From Planctomycetota bacterium (GTDB lineage Bacteria > Planctomycetota > UBA11346), in the NCBI GenBank assembly GCA_025055595.1, contig JANWWU010000022.1, positions 1-64,000 of the forward strand: a stretch of 64,000 nt of DNA. The letters are read 5' to 3'. A program made the translations under genes and the position numbers. Positions 38,750 through 46,678 of the stretch are shown here, one piece after another (positions within the stretch are counted from its first letter, which is position 1; each line of letters starts with the position of its first letter). The notes beneath the pieces were generated by a model that had not been told where the DNA came from, ran no database searches, and saw nothing but the letters and a program-made list of their open reading frames with translations.

Positions 38750-39018
38750 CGCCGCGCCATCTCCGGGGCCTGCAAGGGCAGGCGCAGGCGGCGCAGCGCG
38801 GTCTCGAGGGCCGGCGGCGAGGCCAGCGCATCGAGCTCGCTGCGCAGCGTCGCCAGCTTGGCCTCGAGATCGCGCAGTCGGTCGCGATCGGCGCCGAGGC
38901 GCCGCGCCAGCGCGCGCTGCTCGCTGCCGGCGGCGGCGATCGCGGCAGCGAGCAGCGCCGCCAGCGCCAGCCACAGGAAGGCGAGCAGGATGTCCCCCCG
39001 CAGATGCTGCATCGTCAT
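38746..39018 (-). CDS. ftsL: FtsL-like small bitopic protein
   Basis: Single TM followed by coiled coil RALARRLGADRDRLRDLEAKLATLRSELDAL; position between rsmH and ftsI. Confidence 0.65.
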   Translation of the reverse strand: MTMQHLRGDILLAFLWLALAALLAAAIAAAGSEQRALARRLGADRDRLRDLEAKLATLRSELDALASPPALETALRRLRLPLQAPEMARR

Positions 39019-39914
39019 GGTGCTCTCCTCGCCCAACGAAGCTTCGCGCTGTGCGCGCGCGAGTTGGCGGCGATCTCCGCCGGCGTCGGCCGCAGCGGCG
39101 TGCGCGCGATCTCGCGCCACAGCCCGCGCGCCAGCTGCTCGCGGAAGGCGCGCTTGACCAGGCGATCCTCCAGCGAGTGGAAGGCGATGATCACCGCGCA
39201 GCCGCCGGCCGCCAGCAGCGCGGGCAAGGCGCCGAGCAGGCGCTCGAGCTCGCCGAGCTCGTCGTTGACCGCGATGCGCAGGGCCTGGAACGCGCGCAGC
39301 GCCGGATGGCGGCGGTGCCGGCCGGGGATCGCGGCGCGGATCGCCGCGGCGAGGCCGGCGGCGCTGGCGATGCCGCGCGCCCGCGCGCGCTTGAGGGCGC
39401 GTGCGACGCGCCGCGCCTGACGCTCCTCGCCATAGGTGCGCAGCAGCTGGACGAGCGCCGCCTCATCGCTGCCGTCGATCACCGCGAGGGCGTCGCGCAC
39501 GCAGCCGTCGCCCATCCGCATGTCGAGCGGATGCTCGTCGTGCAGCGAGAAGCCGCGGCCGGGCTCGTCGAGCTGCATGCTGCTCATCCCGAGGTCGGCG
39601 AGCACGCCGTCGAAGCGCTCGCCGGCGGCGACCAGCGCGGCGGCCGCCTCGCTGAAGGTGCCGCCGCGGATGGTCAGGCGCTCGCTGTGCGCGTGCAGGC
39701 GCTCGCTGGCCAGCGCGCGCGCCCGCGGATCGCGATCGATGCCAAGCACGCAGGCGCCGGCGGCAAGCAGCGGCGCGCTGTGCCCCCCCGCGCCGAGCGT
39801 GCAGTCGAGGAAGCGCTTGCCCGGAGCCGGCGCCAGCAGGGCCGCGACTTCGGCGCAGAGCACGCTGGCATGCGGCGACGATGGCGCGGGCGATGCCAAA
39901 GCCGTCGCCCTCAT
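39015..39914 (-). CDS. rsmH: 16S rRNA (cytosine-1402-N4) methyltransferase
   Basis: HASVLCAEVAALL, FLDCTLGAGGHSAPLL, DGVLADLGMSSMQLDEPGRGFS, QALRIAVNDELGELERLL, AFHSLEDRLVK. Confidence 0.95.
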   Translation of the reverse strand: MRATALASPAPSSPHASVLCAEVAALLAPAPGKRFLDCTLGAGGHSAPLLAAGACVLGIDRDPRARALASERLHAHSERLTIRGGTFSEAAAALVAAGERFDGVLADLGMSSMQLDEPGRGFSLHDEHPLDMRMGDGCVRDALAVIDGSDEAALVQLLRTYGEERQARRVARALKRARARGIASAAGLAAAIRAAIPGRHRRHPALRAFQALRIAVNDELGELERLLGALPALLAAGGCAVIIAFHSLEDRLVKRAFREQLARGLWREIARTPLRPTPAEIAANSRAHSAKLRWARRAP

Positions 39915-40120
39915 CACGCGCTCGCCGCGAGACGGTCGCGGGATGCCGCCGCGCAGTGTTGCAGGTAGCGCAGGTAGGGGCTGGCGCTGACGGCGATGCC
40001 GAGGCGCGCGGCGGCGCGCAGGCGGGCCTCGCACTCCGCGAGCGTCGGCGCGAGCCGCGCGCTCGCGAGTTCGCGGCGATCGAGAGCCGACAACAGGGAG
40101 ATGCACAGCTGGTCGCGCAT
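39914..40120 (-). CDS. Small uncharacterised protein (68 aa) between mraZ and rsmH
   Basis: MRDQLCISLLSALDRRELASARLAPTLAECEARLRAAARLGIAVSASPYLRYLQHCAAASRDRLAASA; TGATG overlap with rsmH start, 4-nt gap after mraZ stop. Confidence 0.55.
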   Translation of the reverse strand: MRDQLCISLLSALDRRELASARLAPTLAECEARLRAAARLGIAVSASPYLRYLQHCAAASRDRLAASA

Positions 40121-40124
40121 GGCC

Positions 40125-40583
40125 TCACACGATGAGGTAGGGGGTGAGATCGATCGTCGGAGCCTGCGCGGGATTGCTCCAGCGCGCGAACTCCTCGGGA
40201 TTCCACAGATAGACGATGTCGCCGGTGACGACGAACAGGGCGTCGCGCTGCAGGCCGAGGTAGTCGACGAGGTGCTGGGGGAGCACGATGCGCCGCTGGT
40301 CGTCGATCGCCAGCTGCACGGCGCGCGCATTGAGCTCCTGCACGAGCACCAGCTTGTCTTCCGGCGTGCGGTCGGCGGCTTCGAGGATGCGTCGCTCGCG
40401 CCGGCGCAGCTCCTGCTCGCTCATGATCAGCACGACGGGCGAGCGCTGGCGCCGATCGGCCTTGCCCGGCATGTAGTGCGGCAAGGCGCGCACCTGTTCG
40501 AGGCCCGCCAAGCCGACAGCGTCCCGCGGCAGCGTCAGCTGCTTCTTCGGCGACAAGCGGTGCGTCGGCGGCAGGGGAAGCAT
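40125..40583 (-). CDS. mraZ: MraZ-like AbrB-fold transcriptional regulator
   Basis: Two SpoVT/AbrB-like repeats HRLSPKKQLTLPRD and IDDQRRIVLPQHLVDYLGLQRDALFVVTGDIVYLWNPEEF; first gene of dcw cluster. Confidence 0.82.
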   Translation of the reverse strand: MLPLPPTHRLSPKKQLTLPRDAVGLAGLEQVRALPHYMPGKADRRQRSPVVLIMSEQELRRRERRILEAADRTPEDKLVLVQELNARAVQLAIDDQRRIVLPQHLVDYLGLQRDALFVVTGDIVYLWNPEEFARWSNPAQAPTIDLTPYLIV

Positions 40584-40601
40584 GGCGAGGGGCGTTAGGA
40601 A

Positions 40602-40631
40602 CAGTTTGCAACTTTTTGCTACTGGCTGCAA
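40602..40631 (-). promoter_or_regulatory. Putative MraZ operator: three 10-bp-phased direct repeats upstream of mraZ
   Basis: Plus strand CAGTTTGCAA|CTTTTTGCTA|CTGGCTGCAA; minus strand TTGCAGCCAG|TAGCAAAAAG|TTGCAAACTG (TWGCA-N5 x3). Confidence 0.6.
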
Positions 40632-40693
40632 CCAGCAAGCGCAGGAGCGCCTGAGATTTCTAGGTCATTACGAACTCCATTGCTGGGAACGCC

Positions 40694-40722
40694 TTGTATG
40701 ACGGCGACTTCTGCACTATGCT
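40694..40722 (+). promoter_or_regulatory. Putative sigma70-type promoter for the four-HTH gene
   Basis: TTGTAT-N17-TATGCT, 8 nt before ATG 40731. Confidence 0.4.
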
Positions 40723-40730
40723 TCCCGCTT

Positions 40731-41975
40731 ATGGCCGATGCTCCCTTGCTCTGCGATGTGCTGCGTCAACACTTGCAAGCCGCGGGCATCAGCGCCCGGG
40801 CGCTGGCCTTCAAGATCGGCGCCAGCTATCCGAGCATGCTGGCATGGCTGCGCGGGCGCGGCATTCCGCGCAAAGAAGAGCACCGCGAGGCCTTGCGCCG
40901 CGAGCTCGCCTTGCAGCCCGATGTCTTCCACCGCGTGCTCGCGGCGAGCATCAAGGAGAGCGGGATCGAGGATTTTCCCGACGAGAGCGAGCTCGACCTG
41001 CGGCAGCTCGTGCTGCGCCACCTCGAGACCCATCACCTGACCGAGCGCACCTTCGCTGATCTTTCGGGGATCCCCTATGCAACGCTGCAGGGCATCACGC
41101 GGCGCGGCGCTCTGCCGCGCGCCAGCACGCTCGAGCAGCTGGCGCATGCGCTCGGCCTGCCGCTCGAAGTCGTGCGCGAAGCCGCGCAGCGCACGCGCGG
41201 CGAAGCGGAAGCCGCCGGACATCCCGTGACCTTGACGACCGAGGTCGAGACCCACGCCGCGCCGCCGTCGCCCGTCAGCGTTGGTAGCGTCAGCGAAGCG
41301 CCGTCGGCCCCGATGCCGGCGCCGGCCTCCGAGCTCGCGCGCCGCGTCAGCGAGCGCATCGCCGCCAGCGGGCTGACGATCGGCACCTACGCGCGCACCC
41401 ACAACCTGCCCTACATTCCGCTGGCGCGCCTGGTCAGCGAAGGCATCGAGCCGAGCGACCCGGCGGTGCGCGAGGCGATCGTCGCCGCGTTCACCGCCGG
41501 CAACGCCGAGGGCGGCGCAGCCGGCGGCCAAGGCGGCGAGCATCCGACGCGCGCGCTGCACCGCTTCGATCGGCAGACCCATCCGCTCTACAGCCGAGAG
41601 CCGGCGCCGGGCGATCACCCCCTGCAGGACGCCTTGCTGCGGCTCTGCCGCGAGCGCGGGTGGAGCCAGCAGCAGTTCGCGCGCGCTGCCGGCATCGCCG
41701 TCCAGACCGCTTCCCGCTTGCTGCGCGGCGAGCTGCCGGTGCGCGATGCGACGCACGCCAAGCTGCGCGAGCTGCTCGGCCTCGACGAGGCGGCGTACCG
41801 CGCCCTGCTGCCGCCGGAGCCGGCGCATGTGCCGGGCGACGCCGAGCGGGCGGGCAGCGCGGAGGACGGCGACAGCACCACCGAAGCCCTCGATCTGGCG
41901 CGGCAGATCATGCGCCTGCAGCCCGGGCAGCGCCGGGCCGTCAAGCGTCTGGTGAAGACGCTGCGCCGCGAGTGA
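40731..41975 (+). CDS. Multi-HTH (four XRE/Cro-like modules) DNA-binding protein
   Basis: Four successive HTH-like units: LLCDVLRQHLQAAGISARALAFKIGASYPSMLAWLRG; LVLRHLETHHLTERTFADLSGIPYATLQGITRRG; VSERIAASGLTIGTYARTHNLPYIPLARLVSEG; LLRLCRERGWSQQQFARAAGIAVQTASRLLRG. Confidence 0.75.
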   Translation: MADAPLLCDVLRQHLQAAGISARALAFKIGASYPSMLAWLRGRGIPRKEEHREALRRELALQPDVFHRVLAASIKESGIEDFPDESELDLRQLVLRHLETHHLTERTFADLSGIPYATLQGITRRGALPRASTLEQLAHALGLPLEVVREAAQRTRGEAEAAGHPVTLTTEVETHAAPPSPVSVGSVSEAPSAPMPAPASELARRVSERIAASGLTIGTYARTHNLPYIPLARLVSEGIEPSDPAVREAIVAAFTAGNAEGGAAGGQGGEHPTRALHRFDRQTHPLYSREPAPGDHPLQDALLRLCRERGWSQQQFARAAGIAVQTASRLLRGELPVRDATHAKLRELLGLDEAAYRALLPPEPAHVPGDAERAGSAEDGDSTTEALDLARQIMRLQPGQRRAVKRLVKTLRRE

Positions 41976-42384
41976 GCGCGCGCTGCGCGAGGAAGCGCCG
42001 CAGGATGCAGGCGGCCGCCTCGGCGTCGATCCAGCCGTCGGCGCAGGGCCAGCGGCCGCTCTCCTGCAGCAGGGCGATCGCCTCCGCGGTCGTGTCCCGT
42101 TCGTCGCAGAAGCGGATCGGCAGCGTGGTGCGCTGCGCCAGCCGGGCACGGAAGCGCTGCACCCAGCGCGCGTTGTCGCCGTAGCGGCCGTCCGCGAGGC
42201 GCGGCATGCCGATGACGATGCCGGCCGCCGCGTGCCGCTGGGCGATGGCGGCGACCGCACGCGCCGCGCGCTCGTCGTCGGCGCGTGCGATCCAGCCGAG
42301 GGGCCGCGCCGTGAGCTCCAGGGCATCGCAGACGGCGAGGCCGATGCGCGCGCGCCCGTAGTCGACTCCCACCCAGACCGGCAT
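41941..42384 (-). CDS. ruvX: RuvX/YqgF Holliday junction resolvase-like protein
   Basis: VGVDYGRARIGLAVCDALELTARPL, GIVIGMPRLADGRYGDNARWVQRF, FCDERDTTAEA, AEAAACILRRFL. Confidence 0.9.
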   Translation of the reverse strand: MPVWVGVDYGRARIGLAVCDALELTARPLGWIARADDERAARAVAAIAQRHAAAGIVIGMPRLADGRYGDNARWVQRFRARLAQRTTLPIRFCDERDTTAEAIALLQESGRWPCADGWIDAEAAACILRRFLAQRALTRGAASSPDA

Positions 42385-42445
42385 GCCGCAGTGTCAGCCC
42401 GCGGCCGCTGCGCCAACCGCCGTCGCCTTGAGCCGCCGCCGCTGC

Positions 42446-44101
42446 ATGGAGGATGCCGGGGTGCCAGTCAAGACGACGGTGCTGCGCCTCGAGCGCGCCG
42501 TACGGGAAGAGCACCAGCGCGCCCTGGTGGTCGCCCGCCTGGAGTGGGAGCGTCTGGCGCAGGCCGTGGTCGCGGCGGCGCGGCGCCGCGGCTACGCCGG
42601 CGACGATCCGTATCTCGCGCTGCAGAGCCTGGCGCTCGTCGATCTGCAGCTGCGGCGGCTGGCGTCGGCGGTCGGCGACCTGTGGTTGACGCTGGCGGCA
42701 GCGCGGCCGCTGTCGCAGCTCGATCCCGAGCAGGGGGCCCTGGTCGATGTCGTCCATCGCTGCCTGACGGCAGCGCACGCCGAGCAGCCCGTTGATCCCG
42801 AGGCGCTGCGCGAGGCGATCGCGGCGATTGCCGCCGTCTGCGCGGCGCAGCAGCGCGCGCCGGCCGCGGTCTCGGAGGCGCCGGAGGCGGTGGCGGCGCG
42901 TGCGGCGATCGCCGCCGCCGAACGCGAGCGAGACGGGACCGTGCGCGCCTTTGCCGAGGTGCTCGGCGCCCTGCAGGCCGCGCTCTCCGGCCAGCCGAGC
43001 GCCTTGAGCGGGCGCGGCGCGGAGCTGGTCGCGGCGGTGCGCGGCCTGCGCGAGCAGCGCGAGGAGCTTGTCCGGCAGCTGCGCGACCTGCAGCAGCGCG
43101 TGGCGCGGCTGATTGGCGAGCGGCGCCAGCTGGCCGACGAGCTCGAGCTGTGCCTGCACGAGCTGGGGCGCCTGCGCGCGGCGCGCAACCTGCGGCTTGA
43201 GCTCGCGCCGCGCACCGCGCAGGCGCTCGCCCACAGCGGAAGGCGGCGCCTGGCCCGCGTCCGGCGAGCGCTGGCGGAGCTGCATGCCTGCCTGCCGTTG
43301 ACGGCCGAGCCCGCCCGCGCGCCGCAAGAGCCCGCCGAGGATCCGGAGGCCGCCGATCTGGCAGGGCTGCTGCAGGCCTGGCGCGAGGCCGCCGCCGCCG
43401 TCCTCCTCTATGCCGATCGCTGGCGCTGGGCGCTCGGCGTGCAGCAGCTGGCGGAGGCGGCGCCGCGCTGGCGCGCGCTGCTCGATGAGCTCGTACGCCT
43501 GCTGGCGGCGTGGCGCGCGCGGCTCGGGCTGCCGGCGGGCTGGCTGGCGCAGCCGGAGCGCGGCGCCGTCGCCCTCTGCGCGCTGCCGCCGCTGATCGCC
43601 GAAGATCTGCGCGCGCTCGCGGCGCACCCCGAAGCCGACGCTGCGCTGCCGGAGCTCGTCCGTGTCCTCGCGCCGAGCGTAGCCTGGATGGGGTGCGTCG
43701 TCGCGCATGCCCGGGGCCGCGCCTGGCAGAGCCCGGATCCGCCGGCCGAGGCCGCGCCGCGCGCGGCGCTTGCCCAGCTCGCCGATGCCCTGTGGGACAT
43801 CGCTGGAACCCTCGAGGCCTGCTTCGCCGAGGCCCTGGCCAGCGAGCTGCGCCTGCCGCCCCCCGAGCAGCGGCTGCTCGGCGCCTCTGCCGCGCTGAGC
43901 GGCGCCGTGCGCGAGCTGTGCGCGTGCTGCGAGGAGCTCGCACCGCATGCGCCGCTGCCCCTGCCGCTGCCGGCCGCGCTCGCCGATCATCCCGAGCCCG
44001 ATGCCGTGCTCGAGAGCGCGCGCCGCGCCGCGAGCTGGCTCGATGCGCTTGCCGCCGTGCCGCTCAGCGTCGGCGATGGCGAGGACCGAGAACGCCGCTA
44101 G
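42446..44101 (+). CDS. Uncharacterised long helical/coiled-coil protein
   Basis: Open frame of about 551 aa with heptad-rich segment LREQREELVRQLRDLQQRVARLIGERRQLADELELCLHELGRL; no family recognised. Confidence 0.55.
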   Translation: MEDAGVPVKTTVLRLERAVREEHQRALVVARLEWERLAQAVVAAARRRGYAGDDPYLALQSLALVDLQLRRLASAVGDLWLTLAAARPLSQLDPEQGALVDVVHRCLTAAHAEQPVDPEALREAIAAIAAVCAAQQRAPAAVSEAPEAVAARAAIAAAERERDGTVRAFAEVLGALQAALSGQPSALSGRGAELVAAVRGLREQREELVRQLRDLQQRVARLIGERRQLADELELCLHELGRLRAARNLRLELAPRTAQALAHSGRRRLARVRRALAELHACLPLTAEPARAPQEPAEDPEAADLAGLLQAWREAAAAVLLYADRWRWALGVQQLAEAAPRWRALLDELVRLLAAWRARLGLPAGWLAQPERGAVALCALPPLIAEDLRALAAHPEADAALPELVRVLAPSVAWMGCVVAHARGRAWQSPDPPAEAAPRAALAQLADALWDIAGTLEACFAEALASELRLPPPEQRLLGASAALSGAVRELCACCEELAPHAPLPLPLPAALADHPEPDAVLESARRAASWLDALAAVPLSVGDGEDRERR

Positions 44102-45245
44102 CGCCGGTGCGGCGCAGCGGCAGGCGCGGATGCTCCAGGCGCTCGAGCGCGCGCAGCAGCTCCTCGGCGGAGGCGTAGCGCTCCTCCGGCCGCTTGCGCA
44201 GCAGGCGGGCGACGATCTGCGCCATTCCCAGGCTGACGCCGCGCGCGACGCTGCGGACATCGGGGGCCGGGCGATGCAGATGCGCCTGCACGAGCTCGCT
44301 CGGGCTGCCCTCGAACACCGGCCGCCCGGCGAGGAGGTGGAAGGCGGTGGCGCCGAGGGCGTAGAGATCGGCACGGACATCGAGGTCTTGGCCGGCGGCC
44401 TGCTCGGGCGCGACATAGAGCGGGCTGCCGACGATGCGCTGCTGATGCGCCTTGCCGTCGGCGGCGATCGTCTCGGCGATGCCGAGATCGGCGAGCTTGT
44501 AGGTGCCCGCCTCGTCGAAGAGGATGTTGTCGGGCTTGACATCGCGGTGGACGAGGCGCTGGCTCGCGGCGTAGGCCAGGGCCTGGGCGATGTGGTGCAG
44601 CACCGCGCGCACCCGTGCTTCGGGCAGCGCGCCTTCGCGGTCGAGGACCTCGCCGAGGGAGCCCGCCATCAGCTCCATGACGATGAAGTAGTGCTCGCCG
44701 GCGGTGACGATGTCGTGGACCTGCACGACGTGCGGATGATTGAGCGCTCCCATCCGCCGCGCTTCGGCGAGGAAGGCGCGCACGCGCTCCGGGTTGCGGG
44801 CCTGCTCGGGCGACAGCACCTTGAGCGCCACAGGGCGGCGCAGGGCGAGCTGCAGGCCGCGATACACGGCGCCGAATCGGCCGCGGCCGATCAGCGACTC
44901 GAAGGCGTAGCCGGCGATCTGGGCGCCGAGCAGCGGATCGGGGTCCTCGGCCGCTTCCAGATGCAGGACGCAGCTGCCGATGCGCAGCCGGTCGCCGGGC
45001 ATCACCACCGCGCGCTGCACGCGCTGGCCGTTGAGCCAGGTGCCGTTGCGGCTGCCGAGGTCCTCGACCACCCAGCCCTCCTCGCTCGGTCGCAGACGGC
45101 AGTGCGCGCGGCTGACCTGCGCATCGGGGATGACGATCTCGGCGTGCTCCGCGAGGCGACCGATGATCACGCCGGCAGGCCCCGGCTCGAGGTCGATCGC
45201 CCGCGTCGTGCCGTCGTTGGCGCGCATCACCAAGCGGGTGGCCAC
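44064..45245 (-). CDS. FHA domain + serine/threonine protein kinase
   Basis: FHA: GVIIGRLAEHAEIVIPDAQVSRAHCRL...DLGSRNGTWLNGQRV; kinase: GRGRFGAVYRG, VALKVLS, LVHRDVKPDNIL, KLADLGIAE, GSPLYVAPEQ; GTG start inferred. Confidence 0.92.
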   Translation of the reverse strand: MATRLVMRANDGTTRAIDLEPGPAGVIIGRLAEHAEIVIPDAQVSRAHCRLRPSEEGWVVEDLGSRNGTWLNGQRVQRAVVMPGDRLRIGSCVLHLEAAEDPDPLLGAQIAGYAFESLIGRGRFGAVYRGLQLALRRPVALKVLSPEQARNPERVRAFLAEARRMGALNHPHVVQVHDIVTAGEHYFIVMELMAGSLGEVLDREGALPEARVRAVLHHIAQALAYAASQRLVHRDVKPDNILFDEAGTYKLADLGIAETIAADGKAHQQRIVGSPLYVAPEQAAGQDLDVRADLYALGATAFHLLAGRPVFEGSPSELVQAHLHRPAPDVRSVARGVSLGMAQIVARLLRKRPEERYASAEELLRALERLEHPRLPLRRTGASGVLGPRHRRR

Positions 45246-45280
45246 GCCGGCATCTTCGCGCCTACCCCGGCCCTGGCTAG

Positions 45281-46678
<1,398 letters not shown>

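Follow-up and report, generated by a model that had tools for sequence, protein, structure and literature searches.

The window, the whole 64,000-nucleotide stretch of DNA analysed here, comes from a 2.26-Mb Planctomycetota metagenome assembly (90% complete, 107 contigs), and the named relatives used for comparison are Planctomycetota MAGs. Its minus strand carries a dcw cluster (mraZ, rsmH, ftsI, murE), upstream of a plus-strand gene for a four-module XRE-type regulator that we call HTH4. The start codons of mraZ and HTH4 are divergent and lie 147 bp apart (40584–40730), in agreement with the shared intergenic region of roughly 150 bp given in the preliminary description of this DNA. At its 3' end, HTH4 converges with ruvX, and the two genes share 35 bp (41941–41975).

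39015–39917, minus strand: rsmH/mraW, second gene of the dcw cluster
40125–40583, minus strand: mraZ, 152 aa
40694–40722, plus strand: putative sigma70-type promoter of HTH4, TTGTAT-N17-TATGCT (from alignment)
40731–41975, plus strand: HTH4, four-module XRE-type regulator gene, 414 aa (start backed by orthologues)
41941–42384, minus strand: ruvX, convergent with HTH4

The HTH4 ORF runs from an ATG at 40731 to a stop codon at 41973–41975. In-frame alternative starts are present further upstream; the chosen start residue is common to the HTH4 orthologues within genus g1 (MxDxPLL or MSEIPLL), and the predicted −10 box directly precedes this ATG. Three congeners have matching −35/−10 sites in the alignment, and the resulting leader would be very short. 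Further along the window are a 572-aa ORF with no Pfam family above cut-off (42383–44101, plus strand) and, adjoining it, an FHA and Ser/Thr kinase gene (44064–45323, minus strand).

Four homologous HTH modules in one chain

The preliminary description had delimited four HTH-like units and a C-terminal helix in the protein, and structure prediction bears out both. An AF2 model built on a 20-sequence alignment contains four XRE/lambda-repressor-like helical modules with pLDDT of about 90 or more, and the helix quoted earlier sits inside a C-terminal hairpin.

40749–40967, plus strand: HTH module 1 (M1), residues 7–79, recognition helix YPSMLAWL at residues 33–40 (AF2, HHalign, conservation)
40998–41213, plus strand: HTH module 2 (M2), residues 90–161, recognition helix YATLQGITRR at residues 116–125 (AF2, HHalign, conservation, Pfam)
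41331–41504, plus strand: HTH module 3 (M3), residues 201–258, not seen by Pfam here (AF2, HHalign, orthologue model)
41619–41807, plus strand: HTH module 4 (M4), residues 297–359, top Pfam match, HTH_3 (Pfam, AF2)
41871–41969, plus strand: C-terminal two-helix hairpin, residues 381–413 (AF2)

A second AlphaFold model, of a 396-aa orthologue (L037), likewise has four modules, each with five helices, and a well-ordered M1–M2 linker. In the HTH4 model the linkers are disordered and the pTM is 0.40, so the modules have no fixed placement relative to one another. Every pair of modules aligned in HHalign with a probability of 97.1–98.9% (E ≤ 8e-11), whereas the modules aligned with the C-terminal hairpin, used as a control, at less than 1%. 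Taken repeat by repeat, structure and profile gave four HTH folds, not fewer than three.

HTH4 as a whole scored 60.9 bits against HTH_3 (cut-off 23), with HTH_31 and HTH_26 also exceeding their cut-offs. By this domain score and its lambda-repressor-like fold, it is an XRE/Cro-C1-type protein. Scored module by module, M2 and M4 were above the Pfam cut-off, M1 matched barely or weakly and M3 had no match; counting modules by family scan would therefore give too low a number. Conservation peaked at the recognition helices and H3–H4 loops of M1, M2 and M4, the M2 helix being the best conserved of the protein, and a G-x-x-P loop signature is common to all four modules; with these features, no module appears degenerate. 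The M1–M2 linker measures 8–11 residues in all 15 four-module orthologues, whereas the other linkers span 11–39, 18–39 and 18–63 residues.

Foldseek returned P22 c2, HipB, C proteins, SinR and DdrO at a probability of about 1, though with E > 0.05 and without giving the module aligned; a full-length profile search with HTH4 found no solved relatives. Each module shares the lambda-repressor-like fold of the XRE/Cro-C1 proteins (HTH_3, PF01381), but P22 c2, SinR, DdrO and C proteins carry one HTH per chain and HTH4 carries four homologous ones. The SinR (1b0n) and DdrO (6jq1) alignments span 114–120 columns, close to the combined length of M4 and the hairpin. Judged solely by that length match, the hairpin resembles the SinR/DdrO arrangement, suggesting that it probably mediates dimerisation.

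Among proteins with several HTH domains, Cbp1, the CRISPR-repeat binding protein of the Sulfolobales, has three (PMC10883916). Cbp1 and HTH4 both have several internally duplicated HTH domains per chain, which in HTH4 would likewise be laid along DNA, but Cbp1 is archaeal with three domains and HTH4 is bacterial with four. Only 2 of 20 HTH4 members matched the NCBIfam Cbp1 model NF040595 (best E 9e-7, the level of a generic HTH), which does not place HTH4 in the Cbp1 family. Wmk of Wolbachia is prophage-associated and has two HTH domains with an interdomain linker (PMC12889037); it resembles HTH4 in architecture, both being multi-HTH proteins with a linker, with two HTH in Wmk. The closest structural matches were predicted phage CI-like proteins in BFVD (A0A8S5SGL7 and others; Foldseek E 1e-7), whose alignment over 339 columns suggests that several HTH units probably align, although the TM-score is low and the identity 14%, making the full chain at most a candidate homologue. 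Our literature search for tandem HTH combined with XRE found no reports. Regulators with four homologous HTH heads per chain are uncommon, and the HTH4 architecture is both real and unusual.

Distribution and gene neighbourhood of HTH4

A profile search found the HTH4 family in 21 of 23 genomes and all 12 genera of the class, and in none of 320 other genomes of the phylum sample. Both class genomes that lack it are incomplete (72% and 61%). HTH4 is a class-specific core gene. (A separate scan of genome contigs gave only the three congeners.) Each genome has one full-length match, with one extra weak HTH match in each of G000 and G001. Four modules are present in 15 genomes, but the three g5 orthologues contain M3 and M4 only and the G005 orthologue is without M4, indicating that four modules are not strictly required. 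The G016 orthologue ends at a contig edge, and G021 has only weak fragments, split over two contigs. In G017, the two-module orthologue is closely preceded by a tandem DNA repeat of CCTTCGTAC-like units (L047:7472–7838).

This distribution bears on whether HTH4 could be a domesticated phage-type repressor, or another mobile-element regulator, with a local function. The phage CI-like proteins that are its best structural matches are apparently multi-HTH, and PHROG repressor families also match HTH4. However, searches of phage and plasmid records gave no HTH4 matches, nearly every class genome carries the gene, no phage genes were seen beside it, and its tree mostly tracks genus. We therefore regard a phage-type origin of this kind as highly improbable. 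In the same unrooted tree, g1 and g2 group together with a support of 100, and the g1 branch is long.

The neighbourhood of HTH4 changes from clade to clade. It adjoins mraZ-rsmH-ftsI in g1 only, that is, in 4 of 4 g1 genomes and 4 of 21 carriers. In every other genus that yielded both genes, HTH4 and mraZ lie on separate contigs, and these can be long: HTH4 of G011 sits within a 1.56-Mb contig with mraZ on another, and the G006 contigs are also large. The divergent pairing with mraZ, whose conservation the preliminary description named as a check, is therefore conserved within g1 but not outside it. Taking the clade-varying neighbourhoods together with the grouping of g1 and g2 in the unrooted tree, the pairing is most simply read as a lineage-specific relocation in g1.

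Elsewhere, in six genomes of five genera (L041, L042, L043, L044, L045 and L049), a pair of CNNM/CorC (CBS) transporter-like genes comes closely after HTH4 on the same strand, in an operon-like arrangement (Pfam was run on three of the proteins). An MBL-fold gene precedes HTH4 in g4, g5 and g11; in g5 this gene belongs to a run of dnaA-pilM-MBL-HTH4. HTH4 is directly divergent from dnaA in both g2 genomes, and in all three g5 genomes dnaA is about 3.3 kb or less away. The pilM-dnaA pair is itself conserved (L164, L165, L167, L168, L169, L047, L048 and L050) and stays together without HTH4 in g1 and elsewhere; in several genera the block has a divergent MBL-fold gene, and in some HTH4 is attached.

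HTH4 is placed divergently from dnaA in one genus, within about 3.3 kb of it in another and divergently from mraZ in a third, which could be read as the mark of a class-specific master regulator. Such a protein would coordinate replication with division, in a class where no FtsZ was found, by reading multi-part operators at dnaA and dcw with its four HTH heads. Since interesting neighbours were freely chosen, the dnaA adjacency in g2 and g5 is a lead and not significant by itself. We consider such a role very unlikely.

A phased repeat array upstream of mraZ

The preliminary description had also placed the mraZ repeats in the shared intergenic region. There we found three perfect units, overlapping a plausible promoter.

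40604–40633, minus strand: MraZ-box-like array, 3 × (RGTWG-N5), with units GGTTGCAGCC, AGTAGCAAAA and AGTTGCAAAC (motif scan)
40603–40631, minus strand: putative mraZ promoter, TTGCAG-N17-CAAACT, overlapped by the array (from alignment)

The RGTWG-N5 triplet occurs once in the window, where 20 shuffles produced none, and nowhere else in the 2.26-Mb assembly. Across the class, 3–5 units, some imperfect, recur with a 10-bp period upstream of mraZ in 19 of 19 members examined, among them all 15 that lack an adjacent HTH4. The units often alternate GTTGCA and GTAG, and the array is near-unique in most genomes (L051–L070). Perfect triplets in the class are mostly at mraZ, the rest being mainly simple repeats in G017 with a few single sites. 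In g1 the −35/−10 pair overlapped by the array has a spacing of 17 bp.

Known MraZ boxes have a similar layout. The Burkholderia box comprises four 7-nt direct repeats with 3-nt spacers in the mraZ promoter (PMC7761207), and in Mollicutes the boxes are AAAGTG[T/G] repeats, autorepression being known from E. coli (PMC8475190). Like these, the array consists of direct repeats in the mraZ promoter with a period of about 10 bp, and in g1 it overlaps the predicted −35/−10 elements. Its GTTG/GTAG core is a GT-x-G variant; the repeat core of E. coli, B. subtilis and mycoplasmas contains GTG. Because it follows mraZ and resembles the published boxes, the array is most likely a class-wide MraZ operator, for which it is at present a sequence-based candidate. 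Many class members (G008, G009, G010, G014, G018, G020 and others) have a further element, partly palindromic and near TGACCCACTATATATAGTGG, that is upstream of the array and about 110–150 bp upstream of mraZ.

MraZ itself has an AbrB-like fold and is unrelated to HTH4, whose fold is different. At the 14 HTH4 orthologues away from mraZ, the array was not found upstream, with scores at background. A search of these 14 promoters for any phased repeat gave nothing convincing (weak values in two, P = 0.02 and P = 0.08), whereas the same scan picked up a register of 10 or 20 bp in every mraZ promoter, only about half of them individually significant. No target site of HTH4 was found, and its own promoters held no other clear shared motif, so that no operator backs the proposed reading of DNA by HTH4. 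We rejected the array as an HTH4 target because it tracks mraZ and was not found at HTH4 loci elsewhere. TGACCCACTATAT, as a genome-wide site of a second regulator, was also rejected: three of its four exact matches lie upstream of mraZ, and its other numbers resembled the control.

These results weigh on the proposals, made in the preliminary description, that HTH4 is a good candidate for a second regulator of division and cell-wall genes and that its four modules could read a phased repeat array. As a dedicated dcw regulator, HTH4 would bind the mraZ/HTH4 intergenic region, perhaps at the phased array, and tune mraZ and the downstream cell-wall genes. The divergent adjacency in all four g1 genomes, with a repeat array of 3–4 units inside the shared region, is what speaks for it. 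Yet the mraZ pairing is missing from all other genera, and the only clear array in the mraZ promoter stands there with or without HTH4 next door, as fits MraZ, although another site that escaped detection may exist. Of the four linkers, three are of variable length, which does not favour reading by four modules in a fixed phase. Neither the dcw role nor the reading of the array is supported by this comparative evidence, and we judge a dedicated dcw regulator to be decidedly unlikely. What had been merged can now be separated into an HTH4 gene of shifting neighbourhood and a class-wide operator of probable MraZ type.

No ftsZ was found above cut-off in any of the 23 class genomes, the one weak match being a fragment in G007. 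The class has nevertheless kept mraZ, its array and dcw genes, and with a class-wide MraZ-type operator but no FtsZ found, one may ask which genes or processes MraZ controls in these bacteria.

Proposed role of HTH4 as a multivalent regulator

The reading we favour, and consider reasonably probable, is that HTH4 is a multivalent transcriptional regulator of the XRE type, specific to this class, whose four HTH modules arose by internal duplication and which has a conserved type of target. It builds on the four homologous folds, the constant and variable linkers, the conserved DNA-facing segments, the class-wide retention and the changing neighbourhoods. The near-constant linker between M1 and M2, set against the variable others, suggests that these two modules probably form one rigid two-headed reader, to which M3 and M4 would be tethered by longer, disordered linkers, giving a multivalent, bead-like DNA binder. 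The conserved recognition helices and G-x-x-P loops suggest that all four modules probably contact DNA, the operator being multi-part and of one conserved type. Two chains would probably be paired through the C-terminal hairpin, as in SinR, and transcription would be controlled at sites elsewhere in the genome.

A protein with such beads-on-a-string multivalency, retained across the class with no fixed neighbourhood, might instead be nucleoid-associated or architectural, coating or bridging DNA in the manner of Cbp1, which offers a three-HTH precedent (PMC10883916) and whose NCBIfam model is weakly matched by two members. Other generic HTH matches are just as good as this weak one, however, and the strong conservation of the recognition helices suggests specific sequence reading and favours a specific operator over general coating of DNA, making an architectural function unlikely in our view. 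As for the multivalent transcriptional regulator that we favour, its retention throughout the class and absence from all other genomes in the phylum sample suggest that HTH4 is probably a core regulator of this lineage.
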